Of a DNA stretch of 64,000 bases, positions 13,751-31,927 are shown in pieces. The stretch comes from Calditrichales bacterium MX18-03 (GTDB taxonomy: Bacteria > Bacillota > Clostridia > Lutisporales > Lutisporaceae). The notes beneath the pieces are model-generated. The model was not told the DNA's origin. It ran no database searches and was given only the letters and a program-made list of their open reading frames with translations. The stretch's first letter is position 1. Each line of letters opens with the position of its first letter. The translations under genes and the position numbers were made by a program. The stretch lies in NCBI GenBank assembly GCA_021083345.1, contig JAJGRE010000002.1:372001-436000 (forward strand). Reading direction: 5' to 3'.

Positions 13751-13787
13751 TTACTACACCTCCCGCTATGATGAACCAAAATTATGG

Positions 13788-15191
13788 CTAGTTATGCCTG
13801 AAGACTTCCCAGCCCAGATATTTACCCAGTGCTTCTTCCAGTACGGTGGCAGAGCTGGAACGGTTCATGGCCACATGGTGCTCAAAGCCGTTCCTGCATA
13901 TGAATTTCATCAATGCCTGCAGCTCCGGTACCTTACAGACCGCTACACCACCCATCGTATCAACGGTGTCATCGGTAAATTCACCTTCTCCGATGTATAT
14001 CTTTACTTTACCACGGGTATCATCTGTGGATATTTTGGCGAAGGTCATGGGACCGGACGCAACATTTGCTTTGCAAGCGCCAAAGCACTTATCTTCTCCC
14101 AGGGATTTGCCCAGAATATCGAGATTTGATATCTCAAACGGCTTCCCTATGAAGCTTTTGGGATAATTGGAGCAGTGAATGCAGACGCATTTATCCCTGT
14201 CATCCAGGTAATTGTTGTTCCAGTCCAAATAACCGGCAGGCTCCCCTGAGGCAAGATAAAGCGCATACATGGTAAGTGCGCCGGTGATATCCAGTTCACA
14301 TGCACTGGGCATGCCTTTTTCTCCCATCATGCTCATGGTGAGACATGCCGCACAGCCGTAATTCTCCTGAACAGAGCTCCAGCACTGGATGGCGCTGGCA
14401 TTGCATTCATTGTCCTTAAGCCACTTTTCGATGACCAGGCTCAGCTTCGCCTGTTTTAATATGTTTTCTTCCTTAATGTGATCCGCTATCTGTCCATAGG
14501 CCTTGATCTCGGCAACCCGGTCCATTACCGCCTGGGTGTTTTCCATCCGTATGGCGGCAAACAGAATTTCCGAAAGATCCACTACACAAGTTGTGACGCC
14601 TGAGGCCTGCAGCAGCTTCTCAGAAAAGCGCACAGTCTGGAACGGGCCGGGACGCGCACCTATAGCGCCTATCCGAGCTGTCCTGATCCCTTTGACAACC
14701 CTGCACACTCTGGCAAAGAAATCAATGTCCCGGGTGAATTCCTCGCTATCTATCCTGCAGGTATGCAGCTTTGTGTCTGTAAACTTAATGTTGTACTGAT
14801 AAAGGTTGTTGCAGACAGACAGCTTGCCGCAGAAAGCATCCCGGCGGTTGGCAATGCCCATTTTGTCCAGCGTATCATCACACGCCTGTACCAGGACCGG
14901 CACCTCCAGCTTCGCCATATCAATGGCGTTGACGACACCGGTCTCGTCTCCAAAGTTGGGAAGAATAACGATGATGCCTTCGATCCTATCGCTATTCTCT
15001 TTGAACAGCCTGGCACATTTTTTCGCATCCTCCAGTGTTTCCACAGCACCATACACCGTACTGTCTTCGGACAATATGACCGCCTTATGCCCGAGTCTGT
15101 CCAGTTTCGCAAGGATTTCCTCCCGGCCCTTCTTTGCCAGATGGGCTGGAAAAAAACCGCGCGTTGAAACGATTACCCCAAATGTACTCAT
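13788..15191 (-). CDS. L-fucose/L-arabinose isomerase-like protein
   Basis: A 467-residue protein that resembles the L-fucose isomerase superfamily: an N-terminal Rossmann-like domain (IVILPNFGDETGVVNAI), a middle domain with RIGAIGARPGPFQT, and a C-terminal beta-rich domain. AIQCWSSVQENYGCAACLTM and PSACELDITGALTMYAL are the regions expected to carry the metal ligands (Glu and Asp), with a later histidine in FICRNGFEHHVAMN. It is cysteine-rich (for example KCVCIHCSNYPKSF), more than ordinary fucose isomerases. It lies second among the enzymes of the operon, upstream of the kinase. Isomerisation of a free sugar is inferred; the identity of the sugar is not visible. Confidence 0.8.
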   Translation of the reverse strand: MSTFGVIVSTRGFFPAHLAKKGREEILAKLDRLGHKAVILSEDSTVYGAVETLEDAKKCARLFKENSDRIEGIIVILPNFGDETGVVNAIDMAKLEVPVLVQACDDTLDKMGIANRRDAFCGKLSVCNNLYQYNIKFTDTKLHTCRIDSEEFTRDIDFFARVCRVVKGIRTARIGAIGARPGPFQTVRFSEKLLQASGVTTCVVDLSEILFAAIRMENTQAVMDRVAEIKAYGQIADHIKEENILKQAKLSLVIEKWLKDNECNASAIQCWSSVQENYGCAACLTMSMMGEKGMPSACELDITGALTMYALYLASGEPAGYLDWNNNYLDDRDKCVCIHCSNYPKSFIGKPFEISNLDILGKSLGEDKCFGACKANVASGPMTFAKISTDDTRGKVKIYIGEGEFTDDTVDTMGGVAVCKVPELQALMKFICRNGFEHHVAMNRSSSATVLEEALGKYLGWEVFRHN

Positions 15192-22630: not shown

Positions 22631-24106
22631 CTAAGTTCCGCAGAAGGTTCGGTAAGGGCAGGTGGACGGCTCCGGCAGCGTCGTATATTCAGCCTGCTCA
22701 ATGGCGTGCGCATAGGGCTTAGTCAATACCCTCAGCAGCCGCTCCATCACGCTGTAGTCGCCTCTTTTCACAGCGACCTCCAGTGCTTCTTCTACCCTGT
22801 GGTTGCGTGGGATAACTGCCGGATTGGCGCTCTGCATCAGCTGCTGCGAAGCTTCTTTAGACTCCTGCTGCCTGCTCAGCCGGGCCTGCCACAGCTTGTG
22901 CCACCGGGCAAATTCTGCGGTGCCAAGCAGGTTGGTATCCTCGGGCTTGTCATGGGTCAATGCCCGAAAGGTGTTGGTAAAGTCCGCATGGTATTTCTGC
23001 ATCATGCTAAGAAGATCCCCAATCAGGGCTTCATCCAGCGGTTCTTCGCTTAGCAGGCCCAGTTTTGCCCTCATTCCTGCCAGCCAATGGCGACGATACT
23101 GCTCTGAAAAACCTGAAACCGTATCCTGAGCCATCTTGACAGCCCGGTGCTGATCGGCATGCAGCAGCGGCAGTAGAGTCTCGGCAAAGCGAGCGAGATT
23201 CCAGGCGGCAATATTCGGCTGATTGCCATAGGCATAGCGTCCGTGGATATCAATGGAGCTGAATACCGTTGCCGGGTCATAGGCATCCATGAAGGCGCAC
23301 GGACCATAGTCAATGGTTTCGCCGCTGAGAGCCATGTTGTCGGTATTCATCACGCCATGAATAAAGCCGATAAGCTGCCACTTGGCAATCAGCGAGGCCT
23401 GGCGCTTGATCACTTCCTGAAGCAGGAAAAGGTAGCGGTTTTCAGCAGCCTCAAAATCAGGGAAATGCCTTTGCAGGGTATAATCAGCCAGGGTGCGGAC
23501 CTCCTCGGCAGTGCCCCACCTGGAAACATATTCAAAGGTTCCAACGCGCAGGTGGCTGGCAGCCACACGGGTCAGAATAGCACCCGGCTGCTCGGCTTCG
23601 CGGATTACCGGTTCACCGGTGGTAACCACCGCTAGGCTGCGGGTGGTAGGTACGCCAAGCGCATACATCGCTTCGCTGATGATGTACTCGCGCAGCATCG
23701 GTCCAAGTGCCGCACGACCGTCGCCCCGGCGGGAATATGGTGTTCTGCCTGAGCCCTTCAGCTGAATATCATACCGCTGGCCATTGCGCGTAATCTGCTC
23801 GCCCAACAGTATGGCCCGGCCATCCCCCAGCATGGTGAAATGGCCAAATTGATGTCCTGCATACGCTTGAGCAAGCGGCTCCGCCCCTTCGGGAATCCGG
23901 TTGCCGGCTAATACCGCCGCACCATCATTGCTTTGCAGCACCTCGTCATTCAATCCCAGCGATACGGCCAAGGGATGATTGAGAATGATCAGCTTCGGTG
24001 ACCGTACTAGGGTTGGGTTAAGTCGGGTAAAAAATGCTTTGGGCAGACGAGCATAACTGTTGTCAAAGTTCCATCCTGCCCTTGTTTTTTCGTTTTTCTC
24101 CGTCAT
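22631..24106 (-). CDS. selO: SelO/YdiU family protein adenylyltransferase (pseudokinase fold)
   Basis: A 491-residue protein of the SelO family, which transfers AMP from ATP to protein hydroxyl groups and is linked to redox stress. Landmarks: [59 protein letters not shown] and the active-site stretch [20 protein letters not shown] with Asn and Asp. The C-terminus ends [12 protein letters not shown], so cysteine stands where eukaryotic and some bacterial members have selenocysteine. The frame opens to 24184, but the double ATG at 24109/24106 with AGAGGCG upstream is the likely start. The region appears more G+C-rich than its neighbours, which fits separate acquisition. Confidence 0.93.
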
Positions 24107-24328
24107 CATATCGCCTCTTTTTCCGTCTATTACTTTAACTCTTAGCGTCTGCTTCCGCAGATTTATTATACCCTTTCTACACAAAGTTTGAACCCTGTTG
24201 ATCAGTTAGGCGCTTGTAAAGTGTGAAGGCTAATATTTACTGAGTAAAATTAGACATGAGTCTTCTTTCAATTTTGCAGCTATAAAAAATGTCGGATCTG
24301 TCAAAGGCCATGTTTGCCCAAGCATATG

Positions 24329-25111
24329 CTACTTCTTTCGTTCTATACACCATTCTTCAATCTTTTTTTCGGATAAAGCCCAATCAAATAAGAAATCATT
24401 GTTTCCCGAACAATAGGAACATAATTTATTGGCTTCTTTAAGCCTCTTAATTATTCCCGCTCCGTCACATCTGTATATGTCTACCTTTGCACCATCATCG
24501 CATTCTACAGTACTTTTTCCGAAATAATCTTGAAATTTGTCTATGCTTGCAAGAATTGAACACCTGTATATCCTTCCGTCCTTTAATGTGGGACACATGA
24601 TTTTGCATTTATTGGCATTTTTTACGCCGTCAAAGTCACCTTGCAGGTTCAACCTTGCTGCAAACTTTTTCTTCTCGCTCAGTTTATATTCGACACCTTT
24701 GCTTTCCAAGAATTTAATTATTTTCTGTTTGGAATCTTTCAAAATTGGATATAAAGATATTGCCAATTTAACATTTTCTTTCACCAGGCATTCAAAAAAT
24801 TCGTTGCTCATGCCCATAAGCTTAACGCCATTGGTAGCAATTTTAATGTCCGATTTTTTAAATATATTTCGCGTAAACTTTAATATGTCTAAAATGTTCT
24901 CATTTAGTAATGGCTCTCCACCCAGTAACCGAATAACGTTTATATTTGAGAATATATCGCTCAACCGCATAATATCATGCTTATAGCCTTCAAAGTCAAA
25001 TTCCCCACCATCCTTTACCAGTGGTGCAAAGTGTGAGCACCCTTTGCAATTCAAATTGCATTTTTTACAAATTTCGATTTCCAAATATCCTAATGCAGGC
25101 TTTTCGCTCAT
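24329..25111 (-). CDS. radical SAM protein of the CSHFAP group
   Basis: A 260-residue radical SAM enzyme. The N-terminal cluster motif is ICKKCNLNCKGCSHFAPLV, which contains C-x3-C-x2-C (CNLNCKGC). It is followed by RLLGGEPLLNENILDILKF (the GGEP motif that binds the methionine of SAM) and a C-terminal set of cysteines, CKIMCPT, RCSILA and LCSYCSGNN, which may bind an auxiliary cluster. Members with CSHFAP are often found near polysaccharide or peptide modification genes; here it stands alone in the element, so its substrate is open. The ATG at 25111 is preferred over 25132 because AAAGGAGAGGTG lies just upstream. Confidence 0.88.
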   Translation of the reverse strand: MSEKPALGYLEIEICKKCNLNCKGCSHFAPLVKDGGEFDFEGYKHDIMRLSDIFSNINVIRLLGGEPLLNENILDILKFTRNIFKKSDIKIATNGVKLMGMSNEFFECLVKENVKLAISLYPILKDSKQKIIKFLESKGVEYKLSEKKKFAARLNLQGDFDGVKNANKCKIMCPTLKDGRIYRCSILASIDKFQDYFGKSTVECDDGAKVDIYRCDGAGIIKRLKEANKLCSYCSGNNDFLFDWALSEKKIEEWCIERKK

Positions 25112-25360
25112 TTTCACCTCTCCTTTATACATTCACTTCCATATGCTATGAGCATCGTCATCTATTCGGCTTCCTGTCCTAATAATATTATATTTTCATC
25201 GCCATCTATTGTGTGTACATATAAGTCCAAAAGCCTTAATCACTGATGAAGCCGATAACTTATTGATTTTTTACCATAAGTTATCAAATCTTCATTATAT
25301 CTTCACAACATCATTATATCTTTATATTGAAATAAAGAATAAAACAGGAGGTATGATCCC

Positions 25361-25702
25361 ATGAAAAAACTTTGTACTATTCTGGTCGTTACTCTTCTGC
25401 TTACTTTTGCTCTGGCGGTTACGGTTTCTGCTGAAACAGAAAACAATGCCCCTGAGTGGTTCGCAGACATGATGGCCTGGAAGAAGGCCCAGGTGGAAAA
25501 AGCCGTAGATGAAGGACTGATTACAAAAGACCAGGCAAAAGTATACATAGAGCAGATCGAAGCCATGGAAAAATGGCATGCTGAAAATGGTATACCCTTC
25601 GGTTCAGGCTTTGGCGGCTGCCATGGTCAGGTTAACGGTCAGTCAGGCTTTAAAGGCGGATATGGATACGGCATGATGCGGGGCTATTTCCCGATACAAT
25701 AG
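25361..25702 (+). CDS. secreted DUF2680 protein
   Basis: A 113-residue exported protein. It has a cleavable signal peptide (KKLCTILVVTLLLTFALAVT, then VSA before the likely cut), followed by the DUF2680 helical hairpin WKKAQVEKAVDEGLITKDQA with YIEQIEAMEKWH, and a Gly-rich tail (GSGFGGCHGQVNGQSG, GGYGYGMMRGY). Family proteins are small, secreted and of unknown function in Firmicutes. AGGAGG is well placed before the ATG and a strong terminator follows. It lies in the middle of the element. Confidence 0.82.
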   Translation: MKKLCTILVVTLLLTFALAVTVSAETENNAPEWFADMMAWKKAQVEKAVDEGLITKDQAKVYIEQIEAMEKWHAENGIPFGSGFGGCHGQVNGQSGFKGGYGYGMMRGYFPIQ

Positions 25703-25854: not shown

Positions 25855-26268
25855 TCAGTTATCCAAACCGCTGCTCAGCGCCGATTCAATTGCCTTCAGC
25901 AGCGCTTTGCTGGTTGTGGTAGCCCCTGCCACCACATCGACATTGCTCGTCTGTTGATCCATGACCCTTGCGATTACACCCTCCGCTTTTTTAGCATGCT
26001 CACTTCTTCCGTTTTCCAGTACCCGTATAGCCTCTATTCGATGGTTTGCAACCTCTACCTCCACTTGGCAATAGGATTTGCTGTAACTGAATTCCCCTGT
26101 ATATTTCCCATCGGCAACACGGCTCAGGTCCATGTCCTGAATTTCCATACTCCGGACTTCCTCCAAAACCTTGTTGCCCGGTGCCACATAGGCAAAGTAG
26201 AAGCCCCCGAATCCGACCAATAAAACGCCAATCACGACAGTGATAGCAATACTAATTCTTTTCTTCAT
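25855..26268 (-). CDS. membrane-anchored FMN-binding domain protein
   Basis: A 137-residue protein with an N-terminal signal anchor (ITVVIGVLLVGFGGFYFAYV) and an extracytoplasmic FMN-binding domain as in RnfG/NqrC. The signature VDVVAGATTTSKALLKAI contains the S/T-G-A-T motif whose threonine is flavinylated in this family, here AGATTTS. The protein may therefore carry covalently bound FMN, if an ApbE-type transferase exists elsewhere. It lies divergent from the selenoprotein gene; a joint redox role is conceivable but only by position. Confidence 0.82.
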   Translation of the reverse strand: MKKRISIAITVVIGVLLVGFGGFYFAYVAPGNKVLEEVRSMEIQDMDLSRVADGKYTGEFSYSKSYCQVEVEVANHRIEAIRVLENGRSEHAKKAEGVIARVMDQQTSNVDVVAGATTTSKALLKAIESALSSGLDN

Positions 26269-26411
26269 GACTTGCTCCCCCTAATTCATATTCAACTTTA
26301 TATACGCATTATCCTCTGCAAGGTCTGATTGGGTATATTGTGCCGCCGGTTGTGGCAAATGCCAGGAAAAAATGGTAAAATAAAAAGGAATATAGCGGAG
26401 GGGGAATAGGA

Positions 26412-26675
26412 ATGAAAAAGATTACGGTTTTCGGCAGCAAGTATTGACAGGATTGTGAACCCTTGAAAGAGTTTCTTTCAAATAACGGCATCGAGTTTGA
26501 ATATATCGACATTACGGACAGCATAAGAAATCTCAAAATTTATCTTAAATTGAGGGACACCAGAACCGAATTTGATGCTATAAAACAGGTTGGACGAGTG
26601 GGTATCCCCTTTATTATGGTGGGCAACGGAGAGAAGCTGATCTTTGAGCAGCCTGAATTGGATGATTTGCGATAA
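26412..26675 (+). CDS. glutaredoxin-like selenoprotein, Sec encoded by TGA at codon 12
   Basis: An 87-residue thiol-disulfide type protein read through an in-frame TGA (26445-26447). The N-terminus MKKITVFGSKY-U-QDCEPLK places the TGA exactly where the first cysteine of the CxxC redox motif stands in glutaredoxins, giving U-Q-D-C. The rest follows the fold: EYIDITDSIRNLKIYLKLRD, then VGRVGIPFIMVGNG with the cis-proline after Ile, and a last helix. GGAGGGGGAATAGG precedes the ATG at 26412. A 7-base-pair hairpin with loop AGTTT begins 15 bases after the TGA, in the range expected of a bacterial SECIS. Without readthrough only a tail from TTG at 26463 remains. A nonsense mutation is the alternative, but conservation on both sides argues against decay. 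Confidence 0.85.
26463..26481 (+). promoter_or_regulatory. SECIS-like hairpin downstream of the TGA
   Basis: TTGAAAG (26463-26469) pairs perfectly with CTTTCAA (26475-26481) around loop AGTTT, which has a G at its second position. The loop begins 22 bases after the TGA, within the spacing known for bacterial SECIS elements. Confidence 0.65.
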
Positions 26676-26681
26676 TCTTTG

Positions 26682-26712
26682 GCGGTAAACAGCACTGTTT
26701 GCCGCTTTTTTC
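26682..26712 (+). terminator. terminator after the selenoprotein gene
   Basis: GCGGTAAACAG and CTGTTTGCCGC form an 11-base stem (one G-T pair) followed by TTTTTT, directly after the stop codon. Confidence 0.85.
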
Positions 26713-26880
26713 ATAACCTTACGCAACACGCTTTACTGCTTAAAAGCAAAATGAGAAATAAGAGGAAAATTGTAGAAGTATGTAGAATGTAATAATGATT
26801 AAGACTTTTCTGCCAGTACAAAAGAATTGCAGTTTGGTTACAAATTCGTTGCCATATAAGCGCTGGGGAGGTAGCAGCAG

Positions 26881-28794
26881 ATGAAAACGCCCGATGTCAG
26901 TTCGAAAAAAAGGAATAAACCGACAACCTTAATCAAAAGCATATTGATTAGGATTATCCTAATGTCAGTATGCATCGTTACATTGATTACCTTCATCTCA
27001 TATTTCAATGTCTATCACAAGCAGACAGCAAAAAATCTGGAGGACCTCCAACGCTATGTTTCTGAAAGAGTACGGACGGACAGTGAGATTTTCAAACTTG
27101 CCGAGGATAACTTAAAAGTCTTTGAAAAGGAGTTTCTGAAGCTTTATCATTCCGACGTAAAAGTGTCGGATGCGGAATTCTGGTCATACTATTTCACCGA
27201 TGACAAAAAAGCCACCAGAATGCAGCGTAAATACTTCGACGGTATCTTTGATAATGAACAGAATTACATATACGGCATATCCAGCTTTATCGGGAACAAT
27301 CAAAGTGTGGCGGATCCCGATTTTCAGAGGCGCCTTATCCTTACTTACAAAGTCCTGGCAAAGCTTGGCCCAGCTTGGGTCAACCGGTTTGCCAACGTCC
27401 ATGTGGCCTACCCCGAAAATGCCATTACATTGTTTTATCCCGAAGAGCCCTGGGGTTTGAAAGCCAGAGCAGATCTCCCCATGAATGAACTGGGCGTCAT
27501 AAAAGCAGTCAATACGAAGAATAACCCGGAGCGAAAATCCATCTGGTCAGGGCTTTATTATGATGAAACGGTTGAAAAATGGATGATCACTTATATGGAC
27601 CCTGTTGATGACGGCGGCAGGCATCTTATAACGCCGGGGCATGACCTATATCTGAGCGATCTTGTAGACCGCCTGGTCGAAGACAATAACGACGGTACCT
27701 ATAATTTCATCATACGAAAAGACGGCTATCTTGTAGCACACCCCTCCGACCCCACCGATGATCAGAAATGGGTAGGGCAGCTGTCCTTGGATGAGATAAA
27801 AATCCCCTCTGTCATTGAGGCATATAAGTTGATTCAAGAGGAAATTAACGGGGATGCCCAAGAAGTCAGGATCATCAGGAACAAAGCCCATGACAGCTAC
27901 CTTGCGGTAGGTCAGATAGAAGGACCTAATTGGTATTTTATCAGGGTTTTCCCGATGAAGAATATCCGTAGCGCCGCTCACAACGTTGCATTGGAAGTCT
28001 TTATCAGCGGCATGCTGATTCTTTTCACCATCCTTCTGATTGTATATATTGTCATGGGCCGTCAGGCTGAAAAGCCCCTGAAGCGGCTAAGCCTTGCCGC
28101 AGAGGCCATAGGCAAGGGACAATACAAGGAGGTGGCCGAAAGCGAAATCCTGCTGCCGGTTGAGCTGAACAACGAAATCGGGCTGCTCTCCCGAAGATTT
28201 GTCGAGATGGCGGCCAACATCCAAGATTCCAAGGAAAACCTTGAGCGGATTGTAGAGGAAAGAACCCGGGCACTGGAGCAAGCCAATAGCGATCTGATGG
28301 AAATGAGCCTGCTGGACGGACTTTCAGGAATTCATAACAGAAGGTCCTTTGACAGGAGTATTTCAAGGGTTTTCGCCGATGCAAGGCAAAGTATGGGGAC
28401 ATTCTGCCTGATGATGGCGGATATCGACTTTTTTAAGAAGTACAATGACTGCTACGGCCATGCCGAGGGTGATAAGGTCATCAGGGCTATTGCCGAAACC
28501 CTCAAAGCATCCATCAGGGAGGAAGACCGGGTATTCCGGTATGGCGGGGAAGAATTTGCCGTTATTTTCAGCCATGCCGACAGCAGTACGGCCAATGCAA
28601 TTGCCCGGCGTATCATGAAAGCCATACAAGATCTGAATATTGCACATTGCGAAAGTCCCTACGGCTTCATAACCATCAGCGGAGGCATCGTGGAATTCAG
28701 CAGTACCTACAGCAACCTCGAGGAGATCATAAAAGCAGCGGATCAGAAGCTGTACGCGGCGAAGGACGAGGGTCGCAACCTCATTAAGCCATAG
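26881..28794 (+). CDS. membrane diguanylate cyclase with extracytoplasmic Cache sensor
   Basis: Makes c-di-GMP from two GTP. 637 residues: TM1 near 20-45, a large extracytoplasmic sensor to about 370 that resembles a double Cache domain (FIIRKDGYLVAHPSDP in the distal part), TM2 near 375-395, HAMP, a coiled coil with ENLERIVEERTRALEQANSD, and a GGDEF domain. The active site is YGGEEFAVIF, an accepted GGEEF variant, and the metal-binding MMADIDFFKKYND is intact. The inhibitory I-site RxxD (REED, five residues before GGEEF) is present, so product feedback is expected. GGGGAGG precedes the ATG. This is the only cyclase in the window and is carried by the element. Confidence 0.93.
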   Translation: MKTPDVSSKKRNKPTTLIKSILIRIILMSVCIVTLITFISYFNVYHKQTAKNLEDLQRYVSERVRTDSEIFKLAEDNLKVFEKEFLKLYHSDVKVSDAEFWSYYFTDDKKATRMQRKYFDGIFDNEQNYIYGISSFIGNNQSVADPDFQRRLILTYKVLAKLGPAWVNRFANVHVAYPENAITLFYPEEPWGLKARADLPMNELGVIKAVNTKNNPERKSIWSGLYYDETVEKWMITYMDPVDDGGRHLITPGHDLYLSDLVDRLVEDNNDGTYNFIIRKDGYLVAHPSDPTDDQKWVGQLSLDEIKIPSVIEAYKLIQEEINGDAQEVRIIRNKAHDSYLAVGQIEGPNWYFIRVFPMKNIRSAAHNVALEVFISGMLILFTILLIVYIVMGRQAEKPLKRLSLAAEAIGKGQYKEVAESEILLPVELNNEIGLLSRRFVEMAANIQDSKENLERIVEERTRALEQANSDLMEMSLLDGLSGIHNRRSFDRSISRVFADARQSMGTFCLMMADIDFFKKYNDCYGHAEGDKVIRAIAETLKASIREEDRVFRYGGEEFAVIFSHADSSTANAIARRIMKAIQDLNIAHCESPYGFITISGGIVEFSSTYSNLEEIIKAADQKLYAAKDEGRNLIKP

Positions 28795-28841
28795 TAACAG
28801 ACCTCTTTCGTGTTCATTGTTTTCAACTGGATATATACCAT

Positions 28842-28867
28842 GAAAAGCAGCGTTTCGCTGCTTTTTC
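28842..28867. terminator. bidirectional terminator between cyclase and recombinase genes
   Basis: GAAAAGCAGCG (28842-28852) pairs with CGCTGCTTTTTC (28856-28867) around TTT. The right arm overlaps the recombinase stop codon. Confidence 0.8.
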
Positions 28868-30401
28868 ATATTTCCTCATTCTCCACAAGTACAGGGATCT
28901 TTGCCTTAATGATCACTGTTTCATCAGTAATAATCACTGCTTCTATCAGAGACCTTACAATCTCATACCGGTCCTTGAACTCCAGCTTATCCAGCGTGTT
29001 TGCCACCACGCCGGCTATTTCCTTGATCTCCGAAAGCTCCCGGCTGCTTAGACCGCCGCTGTTGATCTCGTTAGACAAAAATTGCTGCAGCTGCTTCAAG
29101 GTGCTGCTCCTGGCATTTATCTCCTTCAATCTTTTTTCTACGCTCAGCTCGTCTATCAAGCCCTTTTGAAACATGGTCGCCGCTCGTTCTTTTTCCTTTA
29201 CAAGTTTATCAAGCTCTTTATCCAGTTCCTCAAGCCTTTTTTGTTTCTCTTCCAGATCGTCCGGCAATCCATCTTGTATTTCTTTCTCCAGTTCTTCTGG
29301 TTTATTTAGCCATGCCGCTATCTTATTCCATATGATCTCTTCCAGTTGGTCCGCATTGATAAAGCCAAGGCTGCACTTTTCCTTCCCATCCACTCCAGGA
29401 GACCTTCCCGTACATACATAATATCGATGTTTCTTGTTCCTATTGGTGATCAGGTTGCCATGTACCGTCAACCCGCACTTTCCACACCGGATCAGGGTGC
29501 TCAGCAGGTAATCGGCTTTGCTGCAGCTGCGCCAAAGCCGCCGTGCATTGGCCAGGATATCTTGGGCCTCATCCCATACCTCTTCGTCAATGATTCCATT
29601 AACTGCAACTGGCACCCATTCTTCCCGAGGGCGTTCCTTGACGCTGACGCGCTCCTCCGGCGGCTTATATTTATTCAGCTTGACGTCTTTCGAATCATAA
29701 CGTCTGATAAACAGTGTGCCCCTATAGGCGGTATTGTTGAGAATTCTTTTTACTGTAGTCTTCTGCCATAGCTTGTTCTTTGGCGACGGGATCCCCATAT
29801 CATTAAGCCTGGCAGCTATGGAATGAGGCCCGATACCATCGATGGTCAGCATGTGGTACATCATGCGGATGATTCGCGCTTCGCCATCATTGATATGCAG
29901 CGTGTCTGTATCCTTGTCAAAGTCATAGCCATACAGCCCGGGGCTATGTGTCAGCTTTCCCTGATTGGCTTTGATCCGCTTACCCAGCTCACACCTGAAC
30001 CGCAGCCGTGCCCGCTCGTACTCGTCCACAGCTGACATGACCGTCAGTTGGAACCGCCCTTCCGGACTGTCCTCATAAGTATTCTTAACAAATACCAACT
30101 GCACCTTTTGCTTCTTGATCTCGTCTACTATAATAAGCTGATGGGACACGTTACGTGAAAGCCTGCTGCAGTCATAGCACACAAAGTAGCTGATGTCTCC
30201 CTCATCCATCCTGTTGAAGGCGGCGATAAGCTCCGGCCGTTCCAATACCGATCCGGATACCCCTTCGTCGCAGAACTCCAGGGTCTCAGTGCAGCCCTGT
30301 TCAGAGGCCTTCCTAGTGCACTCTTCCCTCTGTCCCTGTATTGAGAAGCCCTTTTCGGCCTGCTCCTCGGTTGATACCCTCAGATATATGATCGCCTTCA
30401 T
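28866..30401 (-). CDS. large serine recombinase (integrase of the element)
   Basis: A 511-residue site-specific recombinase. The N-terminal resolvase domain begins MKAIIYLRVSTEEQAEKGFS with the nucleophile Ser in RVS; CYDCSRLSRNVSH carries the catalytic arginines. The recombinase domain follows (GPHSIAARLNDMGIP, TVKRILNNTAYRGTL), then a zinc ribbon (CGKCGLTVHGN ... YYVCTGR ... EKCSLGF) and a coiled coil near residues 370-430. All parts expected for an active integrase are present. ATG at 30401 with GAGGA eight bases upstream is preferred over GTG at 30416. It lies about 1.1 kb from the right attachment site and overlaps a small upstream gene. It should catalyse integration into, and with a directionality factor excision from, the ATPase gene. 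Confidence 0.95.
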   Translation of the reverse strand: MKAIIYLRVSTEEQAEKGFSIQGQREECTRKASEQGCTETLEFCDEGVSGSVLERPELIAAFNRMDEGDISYFVCYDCSRLSRNVSHQLIIVDEIKKQKVQLVFVKNTYEDSPEGRFQLTVMSAVDEYERARLRFRCELGKRIKANQGKLTHSPGLYGYDFDKDTDTLHINDGEARIIRMMYHMLTIDGIGPHSIAARLNDMGIPSPKNKLWQKTTVKRILNNTAYRGTLFIRRYDSKDVKLNKYKPPEERVSVKERPREEWVPVAVNGIIDEEVWDEAQDILANARRLWRSCSKADYLLSTLIRCGKCGLTVHGNLITNRNKKHRYYVCTGRSPGVDGKEKCSLGFINADQLEEIIWNKIAAWLNKPEELEKEIQDGLPDDLEEKQKRLEELDKELDKLVKEKERAATMFQKGLIDELSVEKRLKEINARSSTLKQLQQFLSNEINSGGLSSRELSEIKEIAGVVANTLDKLEFKDRYEIVRSLIEAVIITDETVIIKAKIPVLVENEEI

Positions 30402-30525
30402 TTGCTGATTCCTCACTCATGCATTTAGTAATGACAAGGCGCAGAGTTCTACGGTATATATCCTGTCTCTCCGACTCAGTGCCTGCCGGCTCCACCAGCA
30501 CATTAAACTTTGCTGCCTTCTTCAT
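30313..30525 (-). CDS. 70-residue basic protein overlapping the recombinase start
   Basis: MKKAAKFNVLVEPAGTESER is followed by QDIYRRTLRLVITKCMSEE and a low-complexity end. GGGGG lies seven bases before the ATG at 30525. The last 89 bases overlap the recombinase start in another frame, so only the first 40 residues may be constrained. Such coupling suggests translation of the recombinase follows this gene. It could be a small partner or directionality factor, but no family was recognised. Confidence 0.55.
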   Translation of the reverse strand: MKKAAKFNVLVEPAGTESERQDIYRRTLRLVITKCMSEESANEGDHISEGINRGAGRKGLLNTGTEGRVH

Positions 30526-31407: not shown

Positions 31408-31425
31408 CCCCTTATCCGTATAATA

Positions 31426-31460
31426 AAATAACTTCCCTTTTTTCTTCAGGGAAGTTATTT
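31426..31460. terminator. bidirectional hairpin at the right end of the element
   Basis: AAATAACTTCCC (31426-31437) pairs perfectly with GGGAAGTTATTT (31449-31460). T-rich flanks occur on both sides. It would stop host transcription entering from the ATPase promoter. Confidence 0.7.
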
Positions 31461-31467
31461 CTTGATT

Positions 31468-31510
31468 TTGGGGTAGATACCACCCTTTGAGGTGCAGTCC
31501 CGTCGATCAG
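31468..31510. other. right attachment site (element/host junction)
   Basis: GGTAGATACCACCCTT (31472-31487) is the element end; TGA (31488-31490) is the core shared with the left junction; from 31490 on the ATPase frame is intact toward its start. Confidence 0.85.
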
Positions 31511-31927
31511 GGCAATCCCGTAATCCGGCAGTACCACACCGTCCAGGGAATCATTGTCCGATGAGCAGAAATGCATTTCCACATCATGACCTGCCTCCAG
31601 CATTTCCTTGGCTATGGCTTTCATGAAGCTGGATTTTCCTACGCCCGGACCACCCTTAATGACGAAAATCCTTGCCGCATCCTCCGGAATGATATGATCA
31701 TAGAAGGAATAGAATCCCCTGTAAGTATTGCCCCCCGGGAATACCTTTTTTACTGCTCCTCTTGTCGGCATTGTCATACCTCCCTATTTTGATTGATTGA
31801 GGAACGACCAACTAAATCTCCTGACACAAATCTTAGCTCATTTCCATCATATGCGTTTACAACCGCCTATAATGTTTGGGCAAAAAAATTTTAAAATGCA
31901 CGTGCTCCATTCAACCCATAAGTGCTC

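Follow-up and report, generated by a model that had tools for sequence, protein, structure and literature searches.

The window, i.e. the whole stretch of 64,000 nucleotides analyzed here, contains a small gene whose in-frame UGA at codon 12 appears to be decoded as selenocysteine (Sec) by means of a bacterial SECIS-type hairpin. We give a probability of roughly 95% to this reading, in which the product would be a dithiol redoxin of glutaredoxin fold and the gene an ordinary chromosomal one. Judged from comparative sequence data, it is very probably a selenoprotein gene with a SECIS element and not a decayed gene, because TGA and Cys alternate at codon 12 among relatives, the hairpin is conserved, the coding sequence is under constraint, SelB co-occurs with the TGA form and the Sec machinery is present. 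An earlier note on this DNA had proposed a selenoprotein carried by a mobile element. The first part of that proposal is borne out by conservation and machinery, whereas the second is not. Features and their coordinates are listed in Table 1.

Table 1. Positions, in window numbering, of the predicted selenoprotein gene, its signals and neighboring features.
Feature	Positions	Strand	Remarks
Predicted selenoprotein gene, glutaredoxin fold	26412..26675	+	87 residues; Sec at position 12; motif U-Q-D-C
Start codon ATG	26412		Read from sequence
Stop codon TAA	26673-26675		Read from sequence
In-frame TGA, proposed Sec codon	26445..26447	+	Codon 12; TGA or Cys in relatives
Ribosome-binding-site-like GGAGGGGG	26397..26404	+	7 bases 5′ of the ATG; read directly
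Bacterial SECIS-type hairpin TTGAAAGA-GTT-TCTTTCAA	26463..26481	+	8 pairs; apical loop 23 bases past the TGA
Intrinsic-terminator-like hairpin	26681-26706, then T run to 26711	+	3′ of the selenoprotein gene
Serine recombinase gene	28866-30416		2.2 kb downstream of the selenoprotein gene, GGDEF gene between
Imperfect inverted repeats	28826-28852, 30440-30466		27 bases
SelO-type protein adenylyltransferase gene	22631-24184		About 2.2 kb from the selenoprotein gene
Radical SAM gene	24329-25702		Divergent from a small DUF2680-match ORF
PRK06851-type ATPase, N-terminal piece	31412-31777		About 90 of 363 positions

The ribosome-binding-site-like element lies at a 7-base gap from the ATG to which it had been assigned. 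A scan for terminator-like hairpins returned one, against a mean of 0.5 in shuffled sequences, and its place after the gene is consistent with a single-gene transcript. In the mechanical list of open reading frames, the gene is represented only by a 70-residue tail beginning at TTG 26463, the truncation that had been anticipated for automatic callers. The same truncation could be taken as a sign of decay, i.e. of a nonsense mutation having struck codon 12 of a glutaredoxin gene from which only the tail starting at that TTG, or nothing at all, is made. We regard decay as highly improbable on account of the distribution of the TGA, the selective constraint, the hairpin and the occurrence of SelB, as described below.

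The distinct genes that were collected and read comprise 33 with TGA at codon 12 and 19 with Cys there; the position corresponds to the first Cys of the C-x-x-C motif of the relatives, in line with the proposal that TGA replaces the first Cys of the redox motif. An alignment of homologues had been suggested as a check; the relatives read show TGA or Cys at this codon and not general decay. That 33 distinct genes from the phylum have this TGA speaks against a nonsense mutation. Outside these counts are two loci missed by the search patterns (L075 and L080), the Flavobacteriales-type loci L026-L036 with translations showing Cys, 15 matches from the class sample (E 4.8e-20 to 2.7e-12) that were listed without stops, and all weaker class-sample matches, some of them with TGA. 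A scan of the genome collection yielded 19 loci. Eight of these were close, comprising seven with TGA and one (L024) with TGT at codon 12; the remaining 11 were distant redoxins with Cys, from Flavobacteriales according to their titles. Within the host family, 13 of 22 genomes carry the gene, with one TGA in each of the 13. In the class sample, 118 of 391 genomes matched at E 0.001, many of them weakly, and in the phylum sample 18 of 398 matched at 1e-12, including 15 with TGA (the window's genome among them). L023, from Oceanirhabdus seepicola, is a relative of the TGA form. L089, a homologue of the TGA form, contains an additional in-frame TAG close to its end. The tree of relatives comprised 48 rows and 89 columns.

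Selective constraint was estimated by comparing synonymous and nonsynonymous differences between the window gene and five genes of a sister genus, which are themselves mutually related. The pN/pS ratio was 0.08-0.13 on the 5′ side of the TGA and 0.10-0.14 past the hairpin. Constraint on the protein is similar before and after the TGA, which agrees with the earlier observation of coding sequence on both sides and argues against decay. Downstream of the hairpin, synonymous differences were nearly saturated (32-37 per 32-34 sites); the hairpin codons showed none in four comparisons and one in the fifth, each out of only 4 synonymous sites, a small number.

SelB scored over its cut-off in 29 of 30 TGA-form genomes (the window's own genome, 15/15 and 13/14), compared with 8 of 18 genomes with a stop-free form (7/16 and 1/2). 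The stop-free form was read as Cys in 17 of the 18; the other genome is G274, which carries L075. The sole TGA-form genome lacking SelB (G500) is 81% complete and carries L095, a gene without the hairpin. SelB is not dependent on the glutaredoxin gene, since all nine family genomes without a match to the gene have SelB. The association of SelB with the TGA form weighs against decay, and likewise against a UGA read as some other amino acid.

Fifteen bases separate the TGA from the start of the hairpin, as described before; the structure can be drawn with 7 pairs and an AGTTT loop or with 8 pairs and a GTT loop. Counting 7 pairs, all were intact in 21 of the 33 TGA genes, six in 8, five in 3, and two in 1. 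A core of at least 5 uninterrupted pairs counted from the loop was present in 32/33 TGA genes versus 1/19 Cys genes. The single Cys gene with this core is L024, and its hairpin looks like a remnant left by a Sec-to-Cys change because the tree places L024 as sister to a TGA gene, L025 (99/90). L095 is the one TGA gene without a hairpin at the expected place. A looser scan, accepting any hairpin of at least 6 pairs within published limits, detected one in 31/32 TGA rows and 1/16 Cys rows, the latter (L064) at another place. Across the 32 TGA rows, both arms of the stem show paired changes at the outermost pair (T-A, G-C, C-G), the second pair (T-A, C-G) and the fifth pair (A-T, G-C); the outermost pair was broken in 8 rows and the second in 8. 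The hairpin is kept beyond coding need, which would not be expected of a decayed gene.

Out of 2000 synonymous recodings of the window gene, 0.55% attained the observed number of pairs. The corresponding value ranged from 0.5 to 8% (2000 trials each) among 19 TGA genes, so that any one gene by itself stands out only moderately; the hairpin signal draws its strength from repetition across genes together with the unchanged synonymous sites. Folding of a 72-base stretch was no better than that of its shuffles (z -0.62), 50 of the 200 being as good. What carries the signal is the local hairpin, together with its conservation, and not the fold of the whole stretch. Folding energy was -6.3 kcal/mol for the 25-base hairpin alone and -12.2 kcal/mol for the 72 bases, a value that depends on the stretch folded. 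In the available text of a published model, bacterial SECIS elements have a stem of 4-16 pairs, a loop of 3-9, a spacing of 16-37, a G in the first two loop positions and a free energy of at most -7.5 kcal/mol (PMC13188914). With 8 pairs, a GTT loop and a spacing of 23, the window hairpin falls within these limits for stem, loop, G and spacing; the energy of the 25 bases alone does not reach -7.5 kcal/mol. An Rfam search of positions 26250-26900 gave no match at E 1 or better.

One could imagine, although we think it doubtful, that Bacillota have a subfamily of Sec-glutaredoxins with a longer middle, a client of its own and a hairpin core, GAAAGAG-TT-CTTTC, that hardly differs from genus to genus and turns up again in a putative NrdH-like Sec-redoxin (L113), the core being a sequence-specific, reusable recognition cassette for SelB. 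If true, the SelB-binding hairpin would be cassette-like and not free-form. L113 was encountered on a contig assigned to a virus (IMGVR_UViG_3300020032_000016, positions 13782-13896). It is a TGA-form redoxin of NrdH/YruB-like type, with T-U-P-H-C recognized by eye and the same GAAAGAGTTTCTTTC core; the available stretch ends inside the gene, which lies 119 bases after an ORF resembling, also by eye, an IS110-type transposase.

The genome from which the window derives (4.69 Mb in 15 contigs, with a listed completeness of 100%) has the machinery for Sec insertion. A search for selA, selB, selC and selD had been proposed, and absence of selB or selC named as decisive against a selenoprotein; selB, selC and selD were found by profile search and selA by reading. 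The selB gene scored 372 bits (cut-off 242) and is the only copy over the cut-off, and the ORF adjoining it was read as selA. The tRNA-Sec gene (selC) scored 70 bits (cut-off 47) and has the anticodon TCA; a further match to the tRNA-Sec profile reached 49.1 against the same cut-off of 47. Located 1.6 kb upstream of selB, selD (390 bits, cut-off 125) has an in-frame TGA of its own within SSG-U-AAKIG, which we take to be the usual Sec site of SelD. The presence of selB, selA, tRNA-Sec and a TGA-bearing selD means, by homology, that the host inserts Sec at UGA, in selD at least. These data also bear on the possibility that UGA is read as a different amino acid through a changed code or a suppressor. 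The frame would be open whatever the residue, but the preserved hairpin, the Cys at codon 12 of stop-free relatives, the link of SelB with the TGA form and the TGA in the host selD all point to Sec, and we attach next to no weight to such a decoding.

Is the predicted selenoprotein gene carried as cargo by a mobile element centered on the nearby serine recombinase? Besides this proximity, two observations favor such a view. First, no flanking gene is in common with relatives in the stretches compared. An MFS transporter, a recombinase and one further ORF had distant matches to three loci, not as common neighbors, whereas five sister-genus genes have a downstream neighbor in common. The surroundings have changed in the window lineage, which rearrangement fits as well as movement. 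Second, the gene and SelB are at variance in parts of the phylogeny: the type of gene found in two genera of the family (g3 and g4) is only 41-43% identical at 66-68% identity for SelB, and L059 (genome G161, of another family) groups beside the window's group (96/84), with 58% identity for the gene versus 40% for SelB. Exchange at some time, or the existence of two old types, appears likely because the g3/g4 type is distant and L059 stands beside the window's group.

Other observations are at odds with cargo of this kind, which we consider quite improbable. The inverted repeats, 74% complementary and possibly a chance occurrence, enclose the recombinase alone; the selenoprotein gene has a terminator-like hairpin of its own, and the GGDEF gene intervenes. 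Identity of the gene to three sister-genus genomes (74-79%) is in step with that of SelB (70-72%), and the window gene nests with the sister genus in the tree (99/82, from few columns). Among 20 window ORFs scanned with Pfam, the recombinase was the only mobility gene, and at the DNA level it occurs once in the genome. No match of at least 60% identity was found in phages (178 records, all below 60%; the best 20 of the 178 are annotated as thioredoxin, NrdH or glutaredoxin) or in plasmids (5 records). The best plasmid record, Acetoanaerobium noterae NZ_CP154629, is a replicon of 2.6 Mb with the Cys form. A viral search gave one relative at 31% identity (L080) and one TGA redoxin of another type (L113). 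The selenoprotein gene, whose contig measures 816 kb or more, is most likely an ordinary chromosomal gene, and the placement on a mobile element is not supported in view of a lone recombinase behind a GGDEF gene, the phage and plasmid results and nearest relatives in a sister genus.

Some further features of the window were noted in passing. The SelO-type gene has no in-frame TGA. The DUF2680-match ORF, from which the radical SAM gene diverges, scored 21 bits with the GrrA/OscA1 RiPP model, below the cut-off of 31. Beside the PRK06851-type piece lies a short ORF with a weak match to the CBO0543 family; both may be remnants near the recombinase.

The gene is a clear example of a coding sequence cut down to a tail by a mechanical ORF list. 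With it, the known Sec-glutaredoxins gain a subfamily that occurs in both TGA and Cys forms. Further members could be sought easily by means of the hairpin, which has hardly changed, and L025 (TGA) together with L024 (Cys, apparent hairpin remnant) would suit a study of Sec-Cys exchange. The general picture of selenoprotein biology is left as it is.

The window protein matches the Pfam family Glutaredoxin (PF00462) with 33.4 bits (gathering cut-off 22.9), and its fold model (pLDDT 88.2) has the glutaredoxin fold, with a best Foldseek E-value of 4.3e-4. The best structural match is PDB 7c10 (Z 10.3, rmsd 1.6 over 72 residues, 28% identity), and NrdH structures come next in the ranking. No NCBIfam model exceeded its cut-off for the window protein. 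From motif, fold and machinery, the following course of action may be proposed: (i) translation would start at ATG 26412, and the hairpin would recruit SelB with Sec-tRNA-Sec at UGA 12; (ii) Sec would be inserted there in place of termination, as conservation and machinery suggest; (iii) by analogy with other UxxC proteins of this fold, Sec12 would attack a disulfide, sulfenate or similarly oxidized client as the nucleophile; (iv) Cys15 would resolve the mixed bond, leaving a Se-S bridge; and (v) a reductase or small thiol would then reduce that bridge. The product is a predicted dithiol-type redoxin.

Its closest counterpart of known structure is Grx1 of Clostridium oremlandii (cGrx1), described in the accessible parts of the literature as having a UxxC motif with U13 and C16 (PMC4479559) and as natively a selenoprotein (PMC7642778). 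We equate 7c10, a Cys form, with cGrx1 because of the entry title ‘Dithiol cGrx1’ and the name used in the available text of PMC7642778. The UxxC motif is common to both, and cGrx1 is the best PDB match in a profile search (E 2.9e-10 over profile positions 2-83), but the single window sequence matches over residues 2-37 only (E 0.004). Profile positions 2-83 align with residues 3-71 of the cGrx1 chain, so that the window type has about 13 additional residues; the extra middle corresponds to model helices 38-50 and 52-60 with a conserved LK--L--RD pattern. According to the text available, cGrx1 is taken to reduce the selenoprotein MsrA of C. oremlandii (PMC4479559). A Sec-containing MsrA was considered as a client here as well and rejected, both host MsrA genes being Cys forms without TGA.

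Among profile families, YruB (TIGR02196) was the best in NCBIfam, at 36.8 bits and below its cut-off of 88.55, and Uxx-star (NF041212) gave 24.2 bits, below 66. In alignment A1, 14/14 members match YruB and 12/14 match Uxx-star at E 0.001 or better. The window protein differs from YruB/NrdH-type redoxins in its longer middle and in Sec for Cys. It resembles Uxx-star proteins, which are small and glutaredoxin-like with Sec at the active site, but has a second Cys (UxxC), whereas Uxx-star family 1 is UxxT in the catalogue text available (PMC13188914). The literature searched, as far as its text was accessible, held no description of the window's subfamily. Sec-containing glutaredoxins with UxxC do appear in the accessible portions of published catalogues (PMC13188914, PMC9312934, PMC1794560). 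These portions give one generic Grx family with one example accession, and the likeness drawn here is by Pfam family and motif, PF00462 and UxxC being common to the catalogue entry (PMC13188914, PMC9312934) and the window gene. The window gene is a further member, in a subfamily of its own, of these catalogued UxxC Sec-glutaredoxins.
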